From: Clostridiales bacterium
GTDB taxonomy: Bacteria > Bacillota > Clostridia > Ch29
Direction: 5' to 3'
Assembly: GCA_012728565.1 (NCBI GenBank)
Contig: JAAYEV010000228.1
Location: forward strand, 1-51,161
Length of the DNA stretch: 51,161 nucleotides
This document shows positions 22,760 through 49,436 of this stretch, one piece after another. The position numbers were made by a program, and so were the translations under genes. The notes under the pieces were generated by a model. The model was not told where the DNA came from and made no database searches. It saw only the letters and a program-made list of their open reading frames with translations. Position 1 is the first letter of the stretch. Every line of letters starts with the position of its first letter.

Positions 22760-22812
22760 GGCGCATTCTGCCAACAAAACAGAATACGCCACAAAGGCCC
22801 GGCATATTTCTG
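22760..22812 (-). promoter_or_regulatory. candidate three-arm attenuator (anti-terminator/terminator) in the panC leader
   Basis: Minus strand: CAGAAATATGCC - GGCGTATTCTG - CAGAATGCGCC-TTGTTTT; the middle arm can pair with either neighbour. Confidence 0.45.
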
Positions 22813-22913
22813 TCTCGGTCCCTAAAAGGGCTCAGAGCAGATTTTTTAACCTGAAGTTTTATTGCCCGGTGCAGCTCCCATGGATGCTGCCCTTATATAA
22901 AGTATAATCGGTC

Positions 22914-33114: not shown

Positions 33115-33376
33115 TGACGGCTTAACGCAATGAAGGGGAACAGTAGAAGGATAATGCCCTGCAGAGAGGCGGGCCCAAGGCTGAAAGGTCCGCCGGGAAT
33201 AGGCCTTCGAAACCCGCCCCTGAGCCGGCGGTGAGGAACCGTCCCGGGCTGCCGCCCGTTACCAAGGCTTATCAATGATGGTTGATAATGAGCCGGGCCG
33301 GGTAATTACGGCCAAACGAGGTGGTACCGCGGAAGTAACCCTTTCGTCCTCCGATGGAGGATGAAAGGGTTTTTTT
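33115..33376 (+). ncRNA. T-box riboswitch, proline specifier (CCC at 33213-33215), with terminator
   Basis: AGTAGAAGG, GAAACCCGCCCCTGAG specifier loop pattern, T-box core AACGAGGTGGTACCGCGG (33315-33332), terminator AACCCTTTCGTCCTCC...GGAGGATGAAAGGGTTTTTTT. Confidence 0.93.
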
Positions 33377-39440: not shown

Positions 39441-39477
39441 ACAGAAACTGCCCGTCCCTTAAACGGGTAACGGGCAG
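39441..39477 (-). terminator. expression-platform terminator hairpin of the TPP riboswitch
   Basis: CTGCCCGT...ACGGGCAG then TTTCTGTTT on minus strand. Confidence 0.7.
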
Positions 39478-39485
39478 CAAAAACT

Positions 39486-39570
39486 AACTTCCTACGCTGG
39501 CATTACCCAGATCAGGTATAAGGGTCGGAATGCATCCCTCTCAGCCGGCCGAAAACCAGCTCCCCTGTAA
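39486..39570 (-). ncRNA. TPP riboswitch (THI element)
   Basis: Minus strand GGGGAGCTGG...CTGAGAGGGATGCATTCCGACCCTTATACCTGATCTGGGTAATGCCAGCGTAGGAAG. Confidence 0.97.
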
Positions 39571-39612
39571 TTATTCGGTTCAACTAAATTATATCACAAC
39601 TACAAAATATAG

Positions 39613-40602
39613 TTAACCCGAAAACATAATTTCCAACAGTTCATTCCGGGTTATAGGCCCGAAATAGGAAGTAAGGTCCATTCCTTCCATGGCCTTTTCA
39701 ACCGTTTGTGGGTCGTATTTCAACCCCTTAAGCCCGGCCTCAAAGCCTTCGGTCTCCAGTACACCCAGGTAGTCTCCGTAAAATTTGCATTCCCTTATAA
39801 GTCCTTCCTTGATATGAATGAAAACTCCCACCTTTCCGCCGGGGAAACGCTTCTCGAAGCGGTAATTAAACGGGGGGGATTCGCCATAGGTCCAGGCCCA
39901 GGATGCGAACTTATCCCTGGCGGTCTCGGATATCCGGAGAATAGCCTCCTCCGGGAGTTTTATCTCCTCGGATTCATAATCGTTGGACAGCCTTCTTTGA
40001 AGGCGTTCCCGGAACTCGTCTATGGTCATATCCTCCTTCAGAAACTCCCGAATGTTGCCCACCCGGCTTCGGATGGACTTTATACCCTTGGACTCTATCT
40101 TGTCGGCTGATACGTTCAGGGCTTCCGCCAGGTCCTCGATGTTCACATCAAAGAGCAGGGTCCCGTGGTGCAAAAATTTCCTCCGGTACAGTCGCTGGGC
40201 ATTGCCGGATATTTTCTTGCCATAGGCGACGATATCGTTTCTTCCCACCAGCGTGGCATCCACGCCGAGTTCTCTAAGTACATTTATAATCGGGTTCACA
40301 AAAACCGAAAAGTTTATGGGCCGCCCCGGCTCCACGCGGGATATAAACGTGAAATTCAAATTTCCCAGGTCGTGGTAGACCGCTCCTCCCCCGGAAATCC
40401 TTCTTACCACCTTGATACCCCGTTCCTTTACAAACCGCTGGTTGATTTCCTCCAGCGTATTCTGATTTCTACCTATGATAATGGAAGGCTCGTTCTGCCA
40501 AAGCAGGAAATAGTCTTCCCCCGGGTCCACGTGCATCAGGCAGTATTCCTCCAAGGCAATATTGAAATAGGGATTAGTACTGTTATTGATTATGTATCTC
40601 AT
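39613..40602 (-). CDS. lplA: lipoate-protein ligase A
   Basis: RRISGGGAVYHDLGNLNFTFI. Confidence 0.96.
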   Translation of the reverse strand: MRYIINNSTNPYFNIALEEYCLMHVDPGEDYFLLWQNEPSIIIGRNQNTLEEINQRFVKERGIKVVRRISGGGAVYHDLGNLNFTFISRVEPGRPINFSVFVNPIINVLRELGVDATLVGRNDIVAYGKKISGNAQRLYRRKFLHHGTLLFDVNIEDLAEALNVSADKIESKGIKSIRSRVGNIREFLKEDMTIDEFRERLQRRLSNDYESEEIKLPEEAILRISETARDKFASWAWTYGESPPFNYRFEKRFPGGKVGVFIHIKEGLIRECKFYGDYLGVLETEGFEAGLKGLKYDPQTVEKAMEGMDLTSYFGPITRNELLEIMFSG

Positions 40603-40761: not shown

Positions 40762-40804
40762 TATAAAACAGCCTTTAGCCGAAACGGCAAAAGGCTGTTT
40801 TATA
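40762..40804. terminator. strong bidirectional terminator-like hairpin after the gcv operon
   Basis: TATAAAACAGCCTTT / AAAGGCTGTTTTATA (15 bp) with inner GCCG/CGGC. Confidence 0.85.
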
Positions 40805-40821: not shown

Positions 40822-41121
40822 TCAGGACTGCAGCTGATACCGGAAGATCAGCGTGGCTTTTCCTTTCCTCTCCTTAATATCGGCCTTTAATATTTCCGCC
40901 ACCTTCCCATCGTCCAGCGTGACCTGGGTACCCTCCAGTGCTTCAATATATTCCTTTAGCCCTTCAACTTGCTCCGGGCCCACTTCTTTCATGACGCCCC
41001 ATGCGCCTGCAAGCACGCTTGCAGGGTTTCATGTGGAGCAGGCCTTCTCCAGCCTTTCCTTCACCGAAGCAGCAATGGCATCCTTAAAAGCTTTTTGGTA
41101 GTTCCCGTCCGCTGCGAACAT
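40822..41121 (-). CDS. candidate CxxU selenoprotein or UGA-readthrough small protein, last gene of the gcv operon
   Basis: One frame: MFAADGNYQKAFKDAIAASVKERLEKACST(UGA)NPASVLAGAWGVMKEVGPEQVEGLKEYIEALEGTQVTLDDGKVAEILKADIKERKGKATLIFRYQLQS*; RBS aggggtg; UGA at 41029-41031. Confidence 0.6.
41006..41025 (-). promoter_or_regulatory. candidate bacterial SECIS-like hairpin 3 nt after the in-frame UGA
   Basis: CCTGCAAG-CGTG-CTTGCAGG, 8-bp perfect stem. Confidence 0.45.
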
Positions 41122-41163
41122 TATGTCACCCCTTGTCATTTTACTATTAAATTTCAATCCTTC

Positions 41164-42642
41164 TTAAAGCTGTTTCTGTTCTGCCCCATCCTTCTGCCAC
41201 TTCAGGATGGGTTTCCTGGCTGCCAGCACCTCATCGATCCTGCGCACCGGGGTATTGTGAGGCGCCTCTTTGAGAACCTGGGGATTCTCCCTGGCCTCCT
41301 CGGCAATACGAATCATGGCATCGATGAACTCATCCAGGGTTTCACGGCTTTCGGTCTCGGTGGGCTCCACCATTATCGCTTCATGGACGATGAGCGGGAA
41401 ATAGATTGTAGGCGGATGGTATCCATAATCTATTAACCTCTTGGCGATATCCAGGGTGGTCACTTCACCGGTCCCGTCCTTCAAGCCGCCAAGCACGAAC
41501 TCATGCTGGCACATCTCATCAATGGGCAGCTTGTAATGCTCCTTAAGTCTGGCCATCATATAGTTGGCGTTTAGAACCGCCCTGCGGCTGGCGTCTTTCA
41601 ACCCCTCCGCGCCCATGGCCAGTATATAGGTATAGGCCCGAATCATGACCCCGAAATGGCCGTAGAAGCTTTTTATCTTGCCTATGGAATAGGGCCTGTC
41701 ATAGTCCAGGTAGTACCTGTCCCCGGATTTCTCGATCATGGGAACGGGCAGGAACTCCACCAGGTGCTCCTTTACACCCACCGGTCCGGACCCGGGGCCG
41801 CCGCCACCATGGGGAGTGGAAAAGGTTTTGTGCAGGTTGTAGTGAATCACGTCAAAGCCCATGTCACCGGGCCTGGAGATACCCATAATGGCGTTCATAT
41901 TGGCCCCGTCGTAATACAGCAGGCCTCCGGCCTCGTGGACCAGGTCGGCGATCTCCTTAATGTTCTTCTCAAAGAGTCCCAGGGTGCTGGGGTTGGTGAG
42001 CATCAGCCCCGCCACCTCATCGCTTAATGCCGCCTTGAGGTCCTCCATATCAACGGCACCGTCCTTGGTGGATTTGATCTCAATAATGTCAAAACCCACC
42101 ATCGCGGCGCTGGCCGGGTTGGTCCCATGGGCGGAATCAGGCACTATAATCTTGGTCCTCTTTTTGTCCCCTCTTTTCTTGTGGTATGCCTTGATTATCA
42201 TCAGACCCACCATTTCCCCGTGGGCCCCCGCAGCCGGCTGCAGGGACACTCTGCTCATTCCGCTTATCTCCGAAAGCATGTAGTCCAGGTCGTACATGAG
42301 GGCCAGGGCTCCCTGCACGGTGTCTTCAGGTTGATAGGGATGGAGATTGGTAAAGCAGTCCAAAGAGGACATATCTTCGTTGATTTTCGGGTTGTATTTC
42401 ATGGTACAGGACCCCAAAGGATAGAACCCCGTGTCCACCCCGTAATTCTTTTTGGACAGCAGGGTATAATGCCTGACCACATCCACTTCGCTGACTTCCG
42501 GCAGTTCTACTTCCTCTTTTGTAAGAAGATGGGCGGGAATCATGTCCTCAAGAGGTGTCCTTTCCACATCGGTTTCCGGGAGCGAATAAGCTTTTCTGCC
42601 TTCCTTTGAAAGTTCGAAGATCAACTTGTTATAGCTTCTCAA
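41164..42642 (-). CDS. gcvPB: glycine dehydrogenase (decarboxylating) subunit 2
   Basis: PLP-binding [20 protein letters not shown]. Confidence 0.98.
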
Positions 42643-43980
42643 TCAGATCACCTCCATTAGCTCTGCCAGCCGGTCGATTTCCTGCTTTGTCCTTTTTTCG
42701 GTGACGCACAGTAAAACACCGTTTTCGATGCCGTATTCCTTGTTAAGGTTGTAGCCGCCCAAGATGTTGCTTTTAAGCAGTTCTTTGTTTACGAGGTCTG
42801 CATCCTTGGGTCCTATCAGGGCAAATTCCCTGAAGAAGGGCTTATCGAAAGCCGGCTTGTATTTACCCCCTGCCGTGATTCTTCTCGCAGCATAATAGGC
42901 TTTTTCCGCAACCTGAAGCGCCACTTCCCGCAGGCCTTTCTTCCCCATGGTGACCATATATATCGCGGCGGTCAGGGCGTTCAAGCTCTGGTTGGAACAG
43001 ATATTCGAGGTGGCCTTGTAGCGCCGGATATGCTGTTCCCTTGCCTGCAGGGTCAGTACGAAGGCCCGCCTGCCGTCCACGTCCACCGACTGCCCCACCA
43101 TCCTGCCGGGCATCCTTCTCATCAGCTTTGAAGTCACAGCCATAAATCCAATGTACGGTCCTCCATAGTTCAGGTTGTTGCCCAGAACCTGGGCATCCCC
43201 CACGGCGATATCCGCTCCATATTCGGCCGGTTTTTTCAAGATAGCCAGGGAAATGGGGTCCACCGAGCTGACCAGCAGCGATTTATTGCCATGGGTGATT
43301 TCCTCGATCTCCGTAAAGTCTTCAACAATGCCGAAGAAGTTGGGGTTCTGGACAATGACAGCCGCGCTGTCTGCATCAATGAGTTTCTTCAGCATCTCCG
43401 GGTCGGTTACACCGTCCGCCATTGGTATTTCCACCATTTTTATATCCCGGGAATGCATGTAGCTTTTCAGCACCTGCCGGGTCTCGGGATGTACCGTCTC
43501 GGACACCAATATGGTGTTCCGCCGGGTGCTGTCCACCGCCATTATGGCCGCTTCCGCACAGGCGGTGGCCCCGTCGTATAAAGACGCATTGCTCACATCC
43601 ATGCCTGTAAGGCCGCAGATCATGGTCTGGTATTCGAAGATTGCCTGGAGGGTGCCCTGGCTTATCTCCGGCTGATAAGGCGTGTATGCCGTGTAAAATT
43701 CAGACCTTTTGGCCAGATGTTTGATTATCGAAGGTATGTAATGGTCATAGGCACCGGCTCCAAGGAAACAGACCAGGTCATCGGTGGTTCGGTTCTTTTT
43801 GCCAAGCTCTTTCATCTTTCGCTCGATTTCCAGCTCTGACATGCCGGGATTCAGCCTAAGGTCCCTCTTTAGAATCAAGTGGTCGGGAATACTCTGGAAC
43901 AATTCGTCCATGGATTCTATGCCGATAACGTCCATCATAGCCTTGGCATCGGCATCGGTATTGGGAATATATCTATGCAT
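42643..43980 (-). CDS. gcvPA: glycine dehydrogenase (decarboxylating) subunit 1
   Basis: [43 protein letters not shown]. Confidence 0.98.
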
Positions 43981-43981
43981 G

Positions 43982-44365
43982 TCATTCCTCCTTTTCACAA
44001 AATATTTTGTAAGCTTCCTCGTCCATCAGGCTTTCCAGTTCGGAAGGATCGTTCATTTCAATGGCCACAATCCAGTTATCAAAAGGTCCTTCGTTCAAAA
44101 GCTGGGGGGAATCTTCCAGCTCTTCGTTGACTTCCACGACCTTCCCGGAAACCGGGGTGTAAGAATCCGCAGCGGCCTTTACGGATTCAATAACGCAGAA
44201 CACGTCCCCGGCCTCGTACTCCGTACCCAACTCCGGGAGCTCCACGTAAACGATTTCACCGAGTGCGTGCTGTGCATAGTCGGTGATACCAATAAGCGCT
44301 TTGTTTCCGTCAACCTTGACCCACTCATGGTCTTTAGAGTAATACAAGCCTTTTACCGTTATCAT
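43982..44365 (-). CDS. gcvH: glycine cleavage system H protein
   Basis: Lipoylation site [18 protein letters not shown]. Confidence 0.98.
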
Positions 44366-44381
44366 TATTCTTTACCTCCAT

Positions 44382-45488
44382 TTATTTTTTATAGTTTTTC
44401 GCATAGAATCTCTTGTCAACAATTTTGGCTGTCGCAGTTTTTTTCCTGATCTGGATTTCAATGATGTCTCCCAGGTTTGCATATTCTTTTTGCACCAGCG
44501 CGAAGCCTATGTTTTTGCCCAGGGTGGGAGAATAATACCCGGTGGTCACGAAACCTATCTCTTTTCCTTCCGAAAGCACACTATAGCCATGCCTTGGGAT
44601 ACCTCTTTCGATCATCTCAAAGCCTACAAGCTTTCTTGCGGGGCCCTCCTGCTTTTGCTTTAATAGCGCTTCCCTTCCAATGAAATCCCCTTTATCGAAC
44701 TTAACAAAGTACCCCAGCCCCGCCTCCAAGGGCGATATGTCCTGGGAGATTTCATTGCCATATAACGGGAGAGCGGCTTCAAAGCGCAGGGTATCCCTGG
44801 CGCCAAGGCCCACGGGAACCACTCCGTCCTCTTTTCCTGTTTCCAGGATTTTTTCCCACACCATAGGAGCGTCCTCGTGGCTCAAGTAAATTTCAAACCC
44901 GTCCTCCCCGGTATAGCCGGTCCTCGACACCAGGCAGTTCGCCCCGGCAATCTTCACATCCCGTTTCAGGTAGAAAGCGGGAATCTCGGAAAGGTCGGTG
45001 TCGGTGAGTTTTTGAAGTACCGCTTCGGCCTTGGGGCCCTGCAGGGCCAGCTCGGAAACCTGGTCCGAAAGGTTTTCAATCTCCACTTGATAGTCTCCCT
45101 TATGGTCCAGCATCCACTGATAGTCTTTTTCCATGTTTGCCGCGTTCACAACGAGGAGATAATGGTCTGCGGAATACTTATAAACCAGCAGGTCGTCTAC
45201 CACTCCGCCATTCTCATAGCACATGAAGGCGTAAATAATTTGATTGTCATTCATTGTCCCAATGTTGTTGGTGAGCAGATACTGAAGGTATTCTGCAGCG
45301 TCTTTTCCCTTCACTTCGATCTCTCCCATGTGAGAGACATCGAATAGCCCCGCAGCGGTGCGCACGGCTTCATGCTCACGGGTCAGGCCGGAAAACTCCA
45401 CCGGCATGGCCCAACCGGCATAATCCACCAGCTTGGCTCCATACTTTTTGTAACTGGGAAACAAAGAAGTTTTCTTTAAATTATCCAT
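44382..45488 (-). CDS. gcvT: aminomethyltransferase (T protein)
   Basis: GLFDVSHMGEIEVKGKDA; SRTGYTGEDGFEIY. Confidence 0.98.
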   Translation of the reverse strand: MDNLKKTSLFPSYKKYGAKLVDYAGWAMPVEFSGLTREHEAVRTAAGLFDVSHMGEIEVKGKDAAEYLQYLLTNNIGTMNDNQIIYAFMCYENGGVVDDLLVYKYSADHYLLVVNAANMEKDYQWMLDHKGDYQVEIENLSDQVSELALQGPKAEAVLQKLTDTDLSEIPAFYLKRDVKIAGANCLVSRTGYTGEDGFEIYLSHEDAPMVWEKILETGKEDGVVPVGLGARDTLRFEAALPLYGNEISQDISPLEAGLGYFVKFDKGDFIGREALLKQKQEGPARKLVGFEMIERGIPRHGYSVLSEGKEIGFVTTGYYSPTLGKNIGFALVQKEYANLGDIIEIQIRKKTATAKIVDKRFYAKNYKK

Positions 45489-47400: not shown

Positions 47401-48735
47401 CTATATACTTAATAACCATGTAGCAGTTGAAAAATATAAAATAAGAGTCAAGGCATCGACAATGGTTGTTATTAGTGGACTTGCCATAATCGCAGGGTCT
47501 ATCTTAAATATTTTTGCTATAATAGGTAGAATCCCACCTGCAATTTTTGCCAACATAACTGTAAAAAACAAGGTGATGCATACAGTTACAGATATTAATA
47601 AGTCAGTCTTTCCAAAATAATATATCCTTACAAAATTTACAACAGTTAGGGCTATTCCGACAAGGCAGCTTACTTGGAGTTCTTTCCATAGTACCTTAAA
47701 AACATCTTTAGGCCTAATTTTTCCTATAGCTAATCCTCTGATTATGAGTGTTGATGATTGGGAACCAGCATTTCCTCCTGTATCCATGAGCATTGGGATG
47801 AATGAAGCAAGCACCACAAATGACTGCAATACTTCATCAAATTTTCTTATAATATTTCCTGTAAAGGTTGCAGAAATCATTAAGATTAAAAGCCAGATTA
47901 TCCTATGCTTTGCTAATACCATTGTATTTGTCTTCAAGTATTCTTTTTCAGAAGGCTGCATAGCAGCCATCTTCTGAAAATCTTCGGTATTTTCCTGGTC
48001 TATAATATCTACAATGTCATCTACTGTCACTATACCAACTAACCTACATTCGCTATCAACTACAGGCATTGAAAGGAAGTCATATTTTTTAAATAATGAT
48101 GTGATTTTTTCCCGGTCATCATAAGTGTTAATATACACAACATCTTTTTCCATAATGTCTCTAACTATTGTCGTATCTTCACTTAATATTAGTTTTCTAG
48201 TTGATATGACACCTTCAAGTTTTCTATTATTGTCAATAACATAGCAAGTATAAATTGTCTCCTTGTCTACCCCTGTTTCCTTAATGTGCTGTATTGCTTG
48301 TTTTACTGTCATTTCCTTTTTTAAGTCAACAAACTCTATAGTCATTATGCTTCCAGCTGAATTCTCAGGATAGTTCAAGAATTGATTGATAAGTATTCTT
48401 GTATCTTCATCTGTATTCTTAAGAACCTTCTTTACTATGTTTGACGGCATTTCTTCTAAAAAGTCAATTGTATCATCAAAAAATAGTTTATCGAAAATAT
48501 TCTTGATTTCCTTATCAGTAATAGATTCAATTATATATTTTTGTAGTTCATTAGGTATATAAGAGAAAACACCTGATGCCATATCCTTAGGCAGTATCCT
48601 TAATACCACTAATAGTTTCTGCTTGTCTAACTCTTCAAAAAGTTGTGCGATGTCAACAACATTCATGTCAACGATTTCTTTTCTTACATCAGCATATTTA
48701 CCCTTCTCAATAAGATTGAGAATCATTTCTTTCAT
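47401..48735 (-). CDS. mgtE: Mg2+ transporter MgtE
   Basis: MgtE N domain, CBS pair, DTGGNAGSQSSTLIIRGLAIG signature; start MKEMILN after RBS ggggag. Confidence 0.97.
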   Translation of the reverse strand: MKEMILNLIEKGKYADVRKEIVDMNVVDIAQLFEELDKQKLLVVLRILPKDMASGVFSYIPNELQKYIIESITDKEIKNIFDKLFFDDTIDFLEEMPSNIVKKVLKNTDEDTRILINQFLNYPENSAGSIMTIEFVDLKKEMTVKQAIQHIKETGVDKETIYTCYVIDNNRKLEGVISTRKLILSEDTTIVRDIMEKDVVYINTYDDREKITSLFKKYDFLSMPVVDSECRLVGIVTVDDIVDIIDQENTEDFQKMAAMQPSEKEYLKTNTMVLAKHRIIWLLILMISATFTGNIIRKFDEVLQSFVVLASFIPMLMDTGGNAGSQSSTLIIRGLAIGKIRPKDVFKVLWKELQVSCLVGIALTVVNFVRIYYFGKTDLLISVTVCITLFFTVMLAKIAGGILPIIAKIFKIDPAIMASPLITTIVDALTLILYFSTATWLLSI

Positions 48736-48842
48736 TTTGTAGCTCCCCTTTGACAGAGCCACACTACCCGATTGGTAGTTATGGCCCAAAATTTATTATT
48801 CCTTTTTTCATTAAAATTACTGGGTAAAGGGTCAAAATCCAT
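48732..48842 (-). CDS. 36-aa leader ORF upstream of mgtE, MgtL-like acidic/proline N-terminus
   Basis: RBS ggtggaggtgg; MDFDPLPSNFNEKRNNKFWAITTNRVVWLCQRGATK*; its TGA overlaps mgtE ATG (ATGA). Confidence 0.6.
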   Translation of the reverse strand: MDFDPLPSNFNEKRNNKFWAITTNRVVWLCQRGATK

Positions 48843-49254: not shown

Positions 49255-49266
49255 ATTAATGTAAGA

Positions 49267-49420
49267 CTTCCCCGTTCAAGTTTTGGCTCTACAAGGCAAT
49301 GAAGTCGCATTAGATTAAGCCTTCTCTGTTCGGCAAAACCTGCTTACCAGTGCAGAGTGTTTCCACTCTTTTACGGCAGCAACCCGTATCCTTGTAGTAG
49401 CCTCGCCTACCGAGATTTTA
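49267..49420 (-). ncRNA. M-box (ykoK) Mg2+ riboswitch
   Basis: Minus strand GGTAGGCGAGGCTACTACAAGGATACGGGTTGCTGCCG...AATGCGACTTCATTGCCTTGTAGAGCCAAAACTTGAACGGGGAAG. Confidence 0.93.
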
Positions 49421-49436
49421 TTCAATTTTCTATTTC

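Follow-up and report, generated by a model that had tools for sequence, protein, structure and literature searches.

A predicted selenocysteine-only CxTU protein family associated with clostridial glycine cleavage operons

Textbooks describe four components of glycine cleavage, a core pathway that has been studied extensively. Selenoprotein families are usually recognized by homologs in which Cys is aligned to the UGA, although such homologs are a customary sign and not a requirement, and the finder deep-Sep states its reliance on them as a limit of its own (PMC12013277). Among the closest described systems, GrdA (PF04723) is likewise a small selenoprotein with a CxxU motif that belongs to the glycine metabolism of anaerobic Firmicutes (PMC13188914), and Peptoclostridium acidaminophilum has the cluster gcvTHPAPB-fhs, within which no lpd is annotated (PMC12674515). 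The families NF041239 (CC/Se motif), DUF1858 (PF08984), and SelW-like (PF10262) also combine Cys-x-x-Sec with a length of about 100 aa and include some clostridial members. Here we analyzed a 51,161-nucleotide stretch of DNA from a Clostridiales bacterium (hereafter the window). Directly after gcvPB it carries a gene for a protein of about 100 aa in which UGA at codon 31 is very probably read as selenocysteine (Sec) by the host's own SelA/SelB/SelC/SelD together with a bacterial SECIS (bSECIS), and which very probably represents a new family found regularly in the clostridial gcv operon.

Gene layout and conservation of the in-frame UGA

The features of the locus are listed in Table 1. The reading frame opens with ATG at 41121, 42 nt from the gcvPB stop, runs for 30 codons to a TGA at 41031-41029, and continues for 68 codons to a stop TGA at 40824-40822, so that the 99-residue ORF spans 41121-40825 on the minus strand. 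Every element of this layout, including the ribosome-binding site, had been given in the original prediction and was confirmed, and reading the sequence gave the same junction around the TGA (ACST-U-NP). An ordinary six-frame ORF display contains just the downstream half (40822-41016), also as predicted. The start codon is supported by the N-terminus M-[x]-F, which is conserved among members.

Table 1. Features of the selenoprotein locus, in window coordinates
Feature	Position	Strand	Basis
Predicted selenoprotein gene, 99 residues including Sec31 (motif C28-S-T-U31-N)	40822..41121	-	33 homologs with TGA at the same codon
In-frame TGA, codon 31, predicted to be read as Sec	41029..41031	-	TGA in 34/34 distinct homologs, 0 sense codons
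Ribosome-binding site AAGGGGTGA	41126..41134	-	Seen directly in the sequence
Probable bSECIS hairpin H2	40993..41007	-	Recurrence in most homologs, compensatory pair, structure excess over synonymous shuffles
Originally predicted hairpin H1, CCUGCAAG-CGUG-CUUGCAGG	41006..41025	-	Seen directly in the sequence
gcvPB, upstream neighbor	41164..42642	-	Adjacency conserved in homologous loci
gcvPA	42643..43998	-	Homologous clusters
gcvH (lipoyl carrier)	43982..44365	-	Homologous clusters
gcvT	44382..45488	-	Homologous clusters
Lipoate-protein ligase (lplA-like), downstream neighbor	39613..40602	-	Many homologous loci have lipB-lipA instead
Terminator-like inverted repeat AAACAGCCTTTTGCC...GGCTAAAGGCTGTTTT after the selenoprotein gene	40765..40800	-	Sequence; part found by scan

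Homologs were found in 33 other genomes, with identities down to 32%. A search of 99 genomes related to that of the window revealed three homologs elsewhere (identity 91, 76, and 46%), each with one internal TGA. An independent pattern scan of a species-level genome collection, using peptide patterns that exclude the Sec codon, yielded five relatives, all five with the TGA, including Alkaliphilus serpentinus (an isolate genome, locus L026) and Alkaliphilus sp. NP8. Wider profile searches brought the family to 34 distinct members, and in one order 27 of 249 genomes were carriers by profile search.

The column of codon 31 was TGA in 34/34 distinct members, with Cys or another sense codon in 0/34. 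The comparison of homologs at this codon, which the original prediction had proposed, therefore gave UGA in every case, with an invariant Cys at -3; no member had a residue other than Cys or Sec at position 31 or ended there, and a sequencing error is excluded by the occurrence of the same TGA in independent genomes. The family motif is C-x-[T/S]-U-[D/N], and C28, U31, R23, G42, V43, I92, R94, and Y95 are invariant across members. Because the search profiles had Cys substituted at the Sec position, they would have favored Cys homologs; none was found among about 1,000 distinct genomes of one phylum searched with profiles, with other phyla covered by the pattern scan only. Plasmid and phage searches and a scan of viral contigs found no relatives. 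Weak profile matches (E 0.001–1) were set aside: the best three were Ku-like proteins, and one other that was inspected was unrelated. Judged from these sequences, the members form a new selenoprotein family that is apparently Sec-only among those found.

Calculation of dN/dS (Nei-Gojobori) within the window's genus gave 0.08–0.35 after the TGA and 0.08–0.25 before it; dS was saturated for one pair, and a pair outside the genus (L048/L049) showed 0.50. On both sides of the TGA dN/dS was thus mostly low, the mark of purifying selection. AlphaFold2 modeling with six family members predicted one compact alpha/beta domain (pLDDT 88.6, pTM 0.78) consisting of a long N-terminal helix (H8-26), a loop with C28/U31, a short helix (H33-37), a strand (E41-47), a helix (H49-62), a strand at E66-68, and a C-terminal beta hairpin (E74-85, E88-98).

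The original prediction observed that selA, selB, and selC lie outside the window, which is true, and called for a genome search that included selD; all four genes were found elsewhere in the same genome. Contig C53 carries selA (614 bits), selB (367 bits), and tRNA-Sec (selC, 72.6 bits), as well as selD (C53:6261-7181), which has one in-frame TGA. By its sequence this SelD is itself a predicted selenoprotein, and it serves as an internal control indicating that the genome uses UGA as Sec. The selA gene was present in 11/11 tested carriers, but equally in 5/5 tested non-carriers, and therefore does not discriminate between the two.

RNA structure downstream of the UGA

The published bSECIS model has a stem of 4–16 bp, a loop of 3–9 nt, a UGA-to-loop distance of 16–37 nt, and a G within the first two loop positions (PMC13188914). 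We folded 33-nt sliding segments of each gene and compared them with 300 codon-usage-weighted synonymous shuffles per gene. Excess RNA structure was strong for segments starting at about +6 to +24 after the UGA, with little elsewhere, and peaked near +9 and again near +18 (Stouffer z about -10 each, inflated by sequence relatedness). Two overlapping hairpins, H1 and H2, together explain this excess.

H1 is the palindrome that the original prediction had put forward as the SECIS. It is present at 41025-41006 as described (+7 to +26, 8 bp, loop CGUG), overlapping the ASVLA codons, but it is not the conserved element, for which H2, centered farther 3', is the main candidate. The hairpin is complete in the window, L003, L026, L028, and L034, partial in others, and missing from L033 and L035. 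Its UGA-to-loop distance of 11 nt, about which the prediction had itself been cautious, indeed falls below the published range of 16–37 nt (PMC13188914). H1 as the sole SECIS was rejected on its loss in L033 and L035 and on this spacing. It is not needed across the family; its contribution to the element may be auxiliary, possibly as a folding aid in the window's genus.

H2 occupies +25 to +39 in the window, with a 5-bp stem GGCGC/GCGUC (+25 to +29 with +35 to +39) and the loop AUGGG at +30, and covers the codons of the A-W-G-V motif. Its UGA-to-loop distance of 26 nt lies inside the published range, whereas its first loop G is at position 3 and the model wants one within the first two (PMC13188914); the UGG or GUG loops of most homologs satisfy the published points, G position included. 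The idea that all 34 sequences share one stem register was rejected, since no stem of at least four columns reached 70% pairing. No common register emerged because two exist, one with a UGG or AUGGG loop (group A, 18 sequences, some folding partly otherwise) and one with a GUG loop (most of the other 16), and pairing was therefore tested in two groups. Within group A, the pair +25:+39 was G-C in eight sequences, C-G in five, U-A in one, and unpaired in four (14/18 paired), with a permutation p of 0.0014, a significance inflated by sequence relatedness. Position +39 is the wobble base of the invariant Val43 and covaries with +25, the first base of codon 39. H2 was not the best predicted local fold in L057-L059, and Rfam gave no match above threshold within the RNA element. 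The conserved RNA element is probably mainly H2, a candidate bSECIS.

Taken together, the conserved UGA, the Sec machinery, purifying selection, and the structured RNA give good support to the originally proposed selenoprotein, a prediction drawn from sequence data. SelA/SelB/SelC/SelD of the host genome would decode the UGA at codon 31 as Sec, directed by a bSECIS hairpin with its apical loop about 26–30 nt past the UGA. The decoding mechanism is standard; what is new is the family, its unusual Sec-only distribution, and its operon context.

Operon context and possible roles

The selenoprotein gene lies directly 3' of gcvPB in 21/34 members and 3' of fhs (formate-tetrahydrofolate ligase) in 8/34; the three of these that were examined read gcvPB-fhs. 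One member has the order gcvPB-lipA-sel-glyA, two genes after gcvPB. Four members (L036, L061, L062, and L063) have no gcv or fhs gene nearby, and the protein can therefore also act outside the gcv operon. Larger stretches were inspected in six genomes. G140, G1002, and G906 showed a complete gcvT-gcvH-gcvPA-gcvPB-fhs-sel, G860 showed gcvT-gcvH-gcvPA-gcvPB-sel-lipB-lipA, and G594 showed gcvT-lpd-gcvH-gcvPA-gcvPB-sel-lipB-lipA, while G721 had no gcv genes near the selenoprotein gene. The typical operon thus appears to be gcvT-gcvH-gcvPA-gcvPB-[fhs]-selenoprotein, often followed by lipB-lipA or lplA. The terminator-like repeat 3' of the selenoprotein gene indicates that this gene closes the gcv operon, and similar repeats occur in L002 and L003.

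The window also holds several regulatory RNAs: a TPP riboswitch (39472-39576, minus strand) ahead of a gene for a small conserved protein and of an ABC transporter whose binding protein resembles THI5/NMT1, an M-box magnesium riboswitch (49263-49421, minus strand) upstream of an MgtE-like gene (47401-48789), a T-box leader (33121-33354, plus strand), and a pan motif (22806-22893, minus strand).

Since the dihydrolipoyl arm of GcvH is the natural partner within the operon, the role that we tentatively prefer is that of an accessory CxTU redox partner of the glycine cleavage system. The invariant Cys28/Sec31 pair would form a selenenylsulfide and exchange electrons with this arm or with the enzyme that re-oxidizes it. 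Against a redox role stand the four members without gcv context and the canonical lpd in most carriers. Replacement of Lpd by the selenoprotein was rejected as a simple explanation: most carriers have lpd as well, G594 within the gcv operon itself, and this coexistence makes a substitute unlikely in general. Four of 11 carriers (G000, which is the window's genome, G001, G025, and G561) showed no lpd over the TIGR01350 cut-off despite a gcv operon, all in draft assemblies in which gaps are possible. A bolder and rather doubtful extension makes the protein a fifth, selenium-dependent and Sec-only component of clostridial glycine cleavage, passing electrons from or to dihydrolipoyl-GcvH with an acceptor other than, or besides, NAD via Lpd; if true, it would couple glycine oxidation or reductive glycine synthesis to such an acceptor.

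The protein might instead serve lipoate assembly, or protect lipoyl or folate chemistry as a repair or peroxidase-type enzyme rather than an electron carrier. We consider this somewhat unlikely, yet it accounts for the lipB-lipA or lplA genes next downstream in many loci, and the neighboring fhs, folE, and glyA genes suggest a general tie to folate one-carbon metabolism. However, the gene lies beside gcvPB more consistently than beside any lipoate gene, and the presence of lipB-lipA downstream is readily explained by the need of GcvH for lipoate. A GrdA-like function, with a C1 or C2 group from glycine bound to Sec as a selenoether, would fit the shared substrate pathway, the comparably small size, and the CxxU motif, but is improbable given that no significant sequence relation to GrdA or any Pfam family was detected.

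Readings in which the UGA is not decoded fare worse still. If it were a true stop, the product would be a 30-residue peptide and the downstream part a separate small protein or a regulatory RNA; a GTG at 41016 could indeed open a 64-aa ORF in the window, and the region 3' of the UGA is structured. This is very improbable, because the two halves align as one conserved unit and are modeled with confidence as a single domain, conservation at the protein level covers Cys28 and the residues past the TGA, and the genome has the full Sec machinery. That an ordinary small gene was split by nonsense mutation, pseudogenization, or sequencing error, which would look identical in a single genome, is a negligible prospect given the same-codon TGA in 34 distinct homologs from independent assemblies, the A. 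serpentinus isolate among them, and the persistence of selection after the TGA.

Comparison with known families and systems

No such family appears among the 119 prokaryotic selenoprotein families inventoried in May 2026 (PMC13188914), and the openly searchable full-text literature linking selenoproteins with gcvPB or glycine cleavage yielded nothing recognizable as it. NCBIfam 20.0 and Pfam hold no model of the family, and the read-through protein had no match in either. It apparently escaped notice for two reasons: annotation breaks off at the UGA, and Sec finders depend largely on Cys homologs, which this family seems to lack. The case also suggests that further families of the Sec-only type are still hidden. 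A conserved extra selenoprotein in the gcv operon ties selenium concretely to the metabolism of glycine, lipoate, and one-carbon units in anaerobes, and it suggests a previously unrecognized selenium-dependent partner of an ancient glycine breakdown pathway. It also offers a handle on the re-oxidation of dihydrolipoyl-GcvH in clostridia whose clusters lack an obvious lpd.

A fold search of the PDB gave no match at E<=0.001, and the sequence profile found nothing significant there. The top PDB fold matches, parts of cereblon (TM about 0.4), were taken as generic beta matches, as were the viral ones, largely tail or uncharacterized proteins with TM of at most about 0.5. The modeled topology differs from that of thioredoxin-fold selenoproteins, whose CxxU stands at the N-terminus of the first helix, with no thioredoxin among the PDB matches listed.

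Unlike GrdA, the new family sits in the glycine cleavage operon and has CxTU followed by D/N, and PF04723 was unmatched at E<=1 by any of the 34 members. The NF041239, PF08984, and PF10262 models likewise matched no family member at E<=1, and their gene context differs; the other NCBIfam selenoprotein models gave no profile match to the family. The L-protein, dihydrolipoamide dehydrogenase (TIGR01350), is a flavoprotein of about 460 aa with the FAD/NAD pyridine-nucleotide-disulfide oxidoreductase fold, whereas the selenoprotein has 99 aa and its model is without a PDB match (E<=0.001), yet both would act at the same step, the redox reaction of dihydrolipoyl-GcvH.
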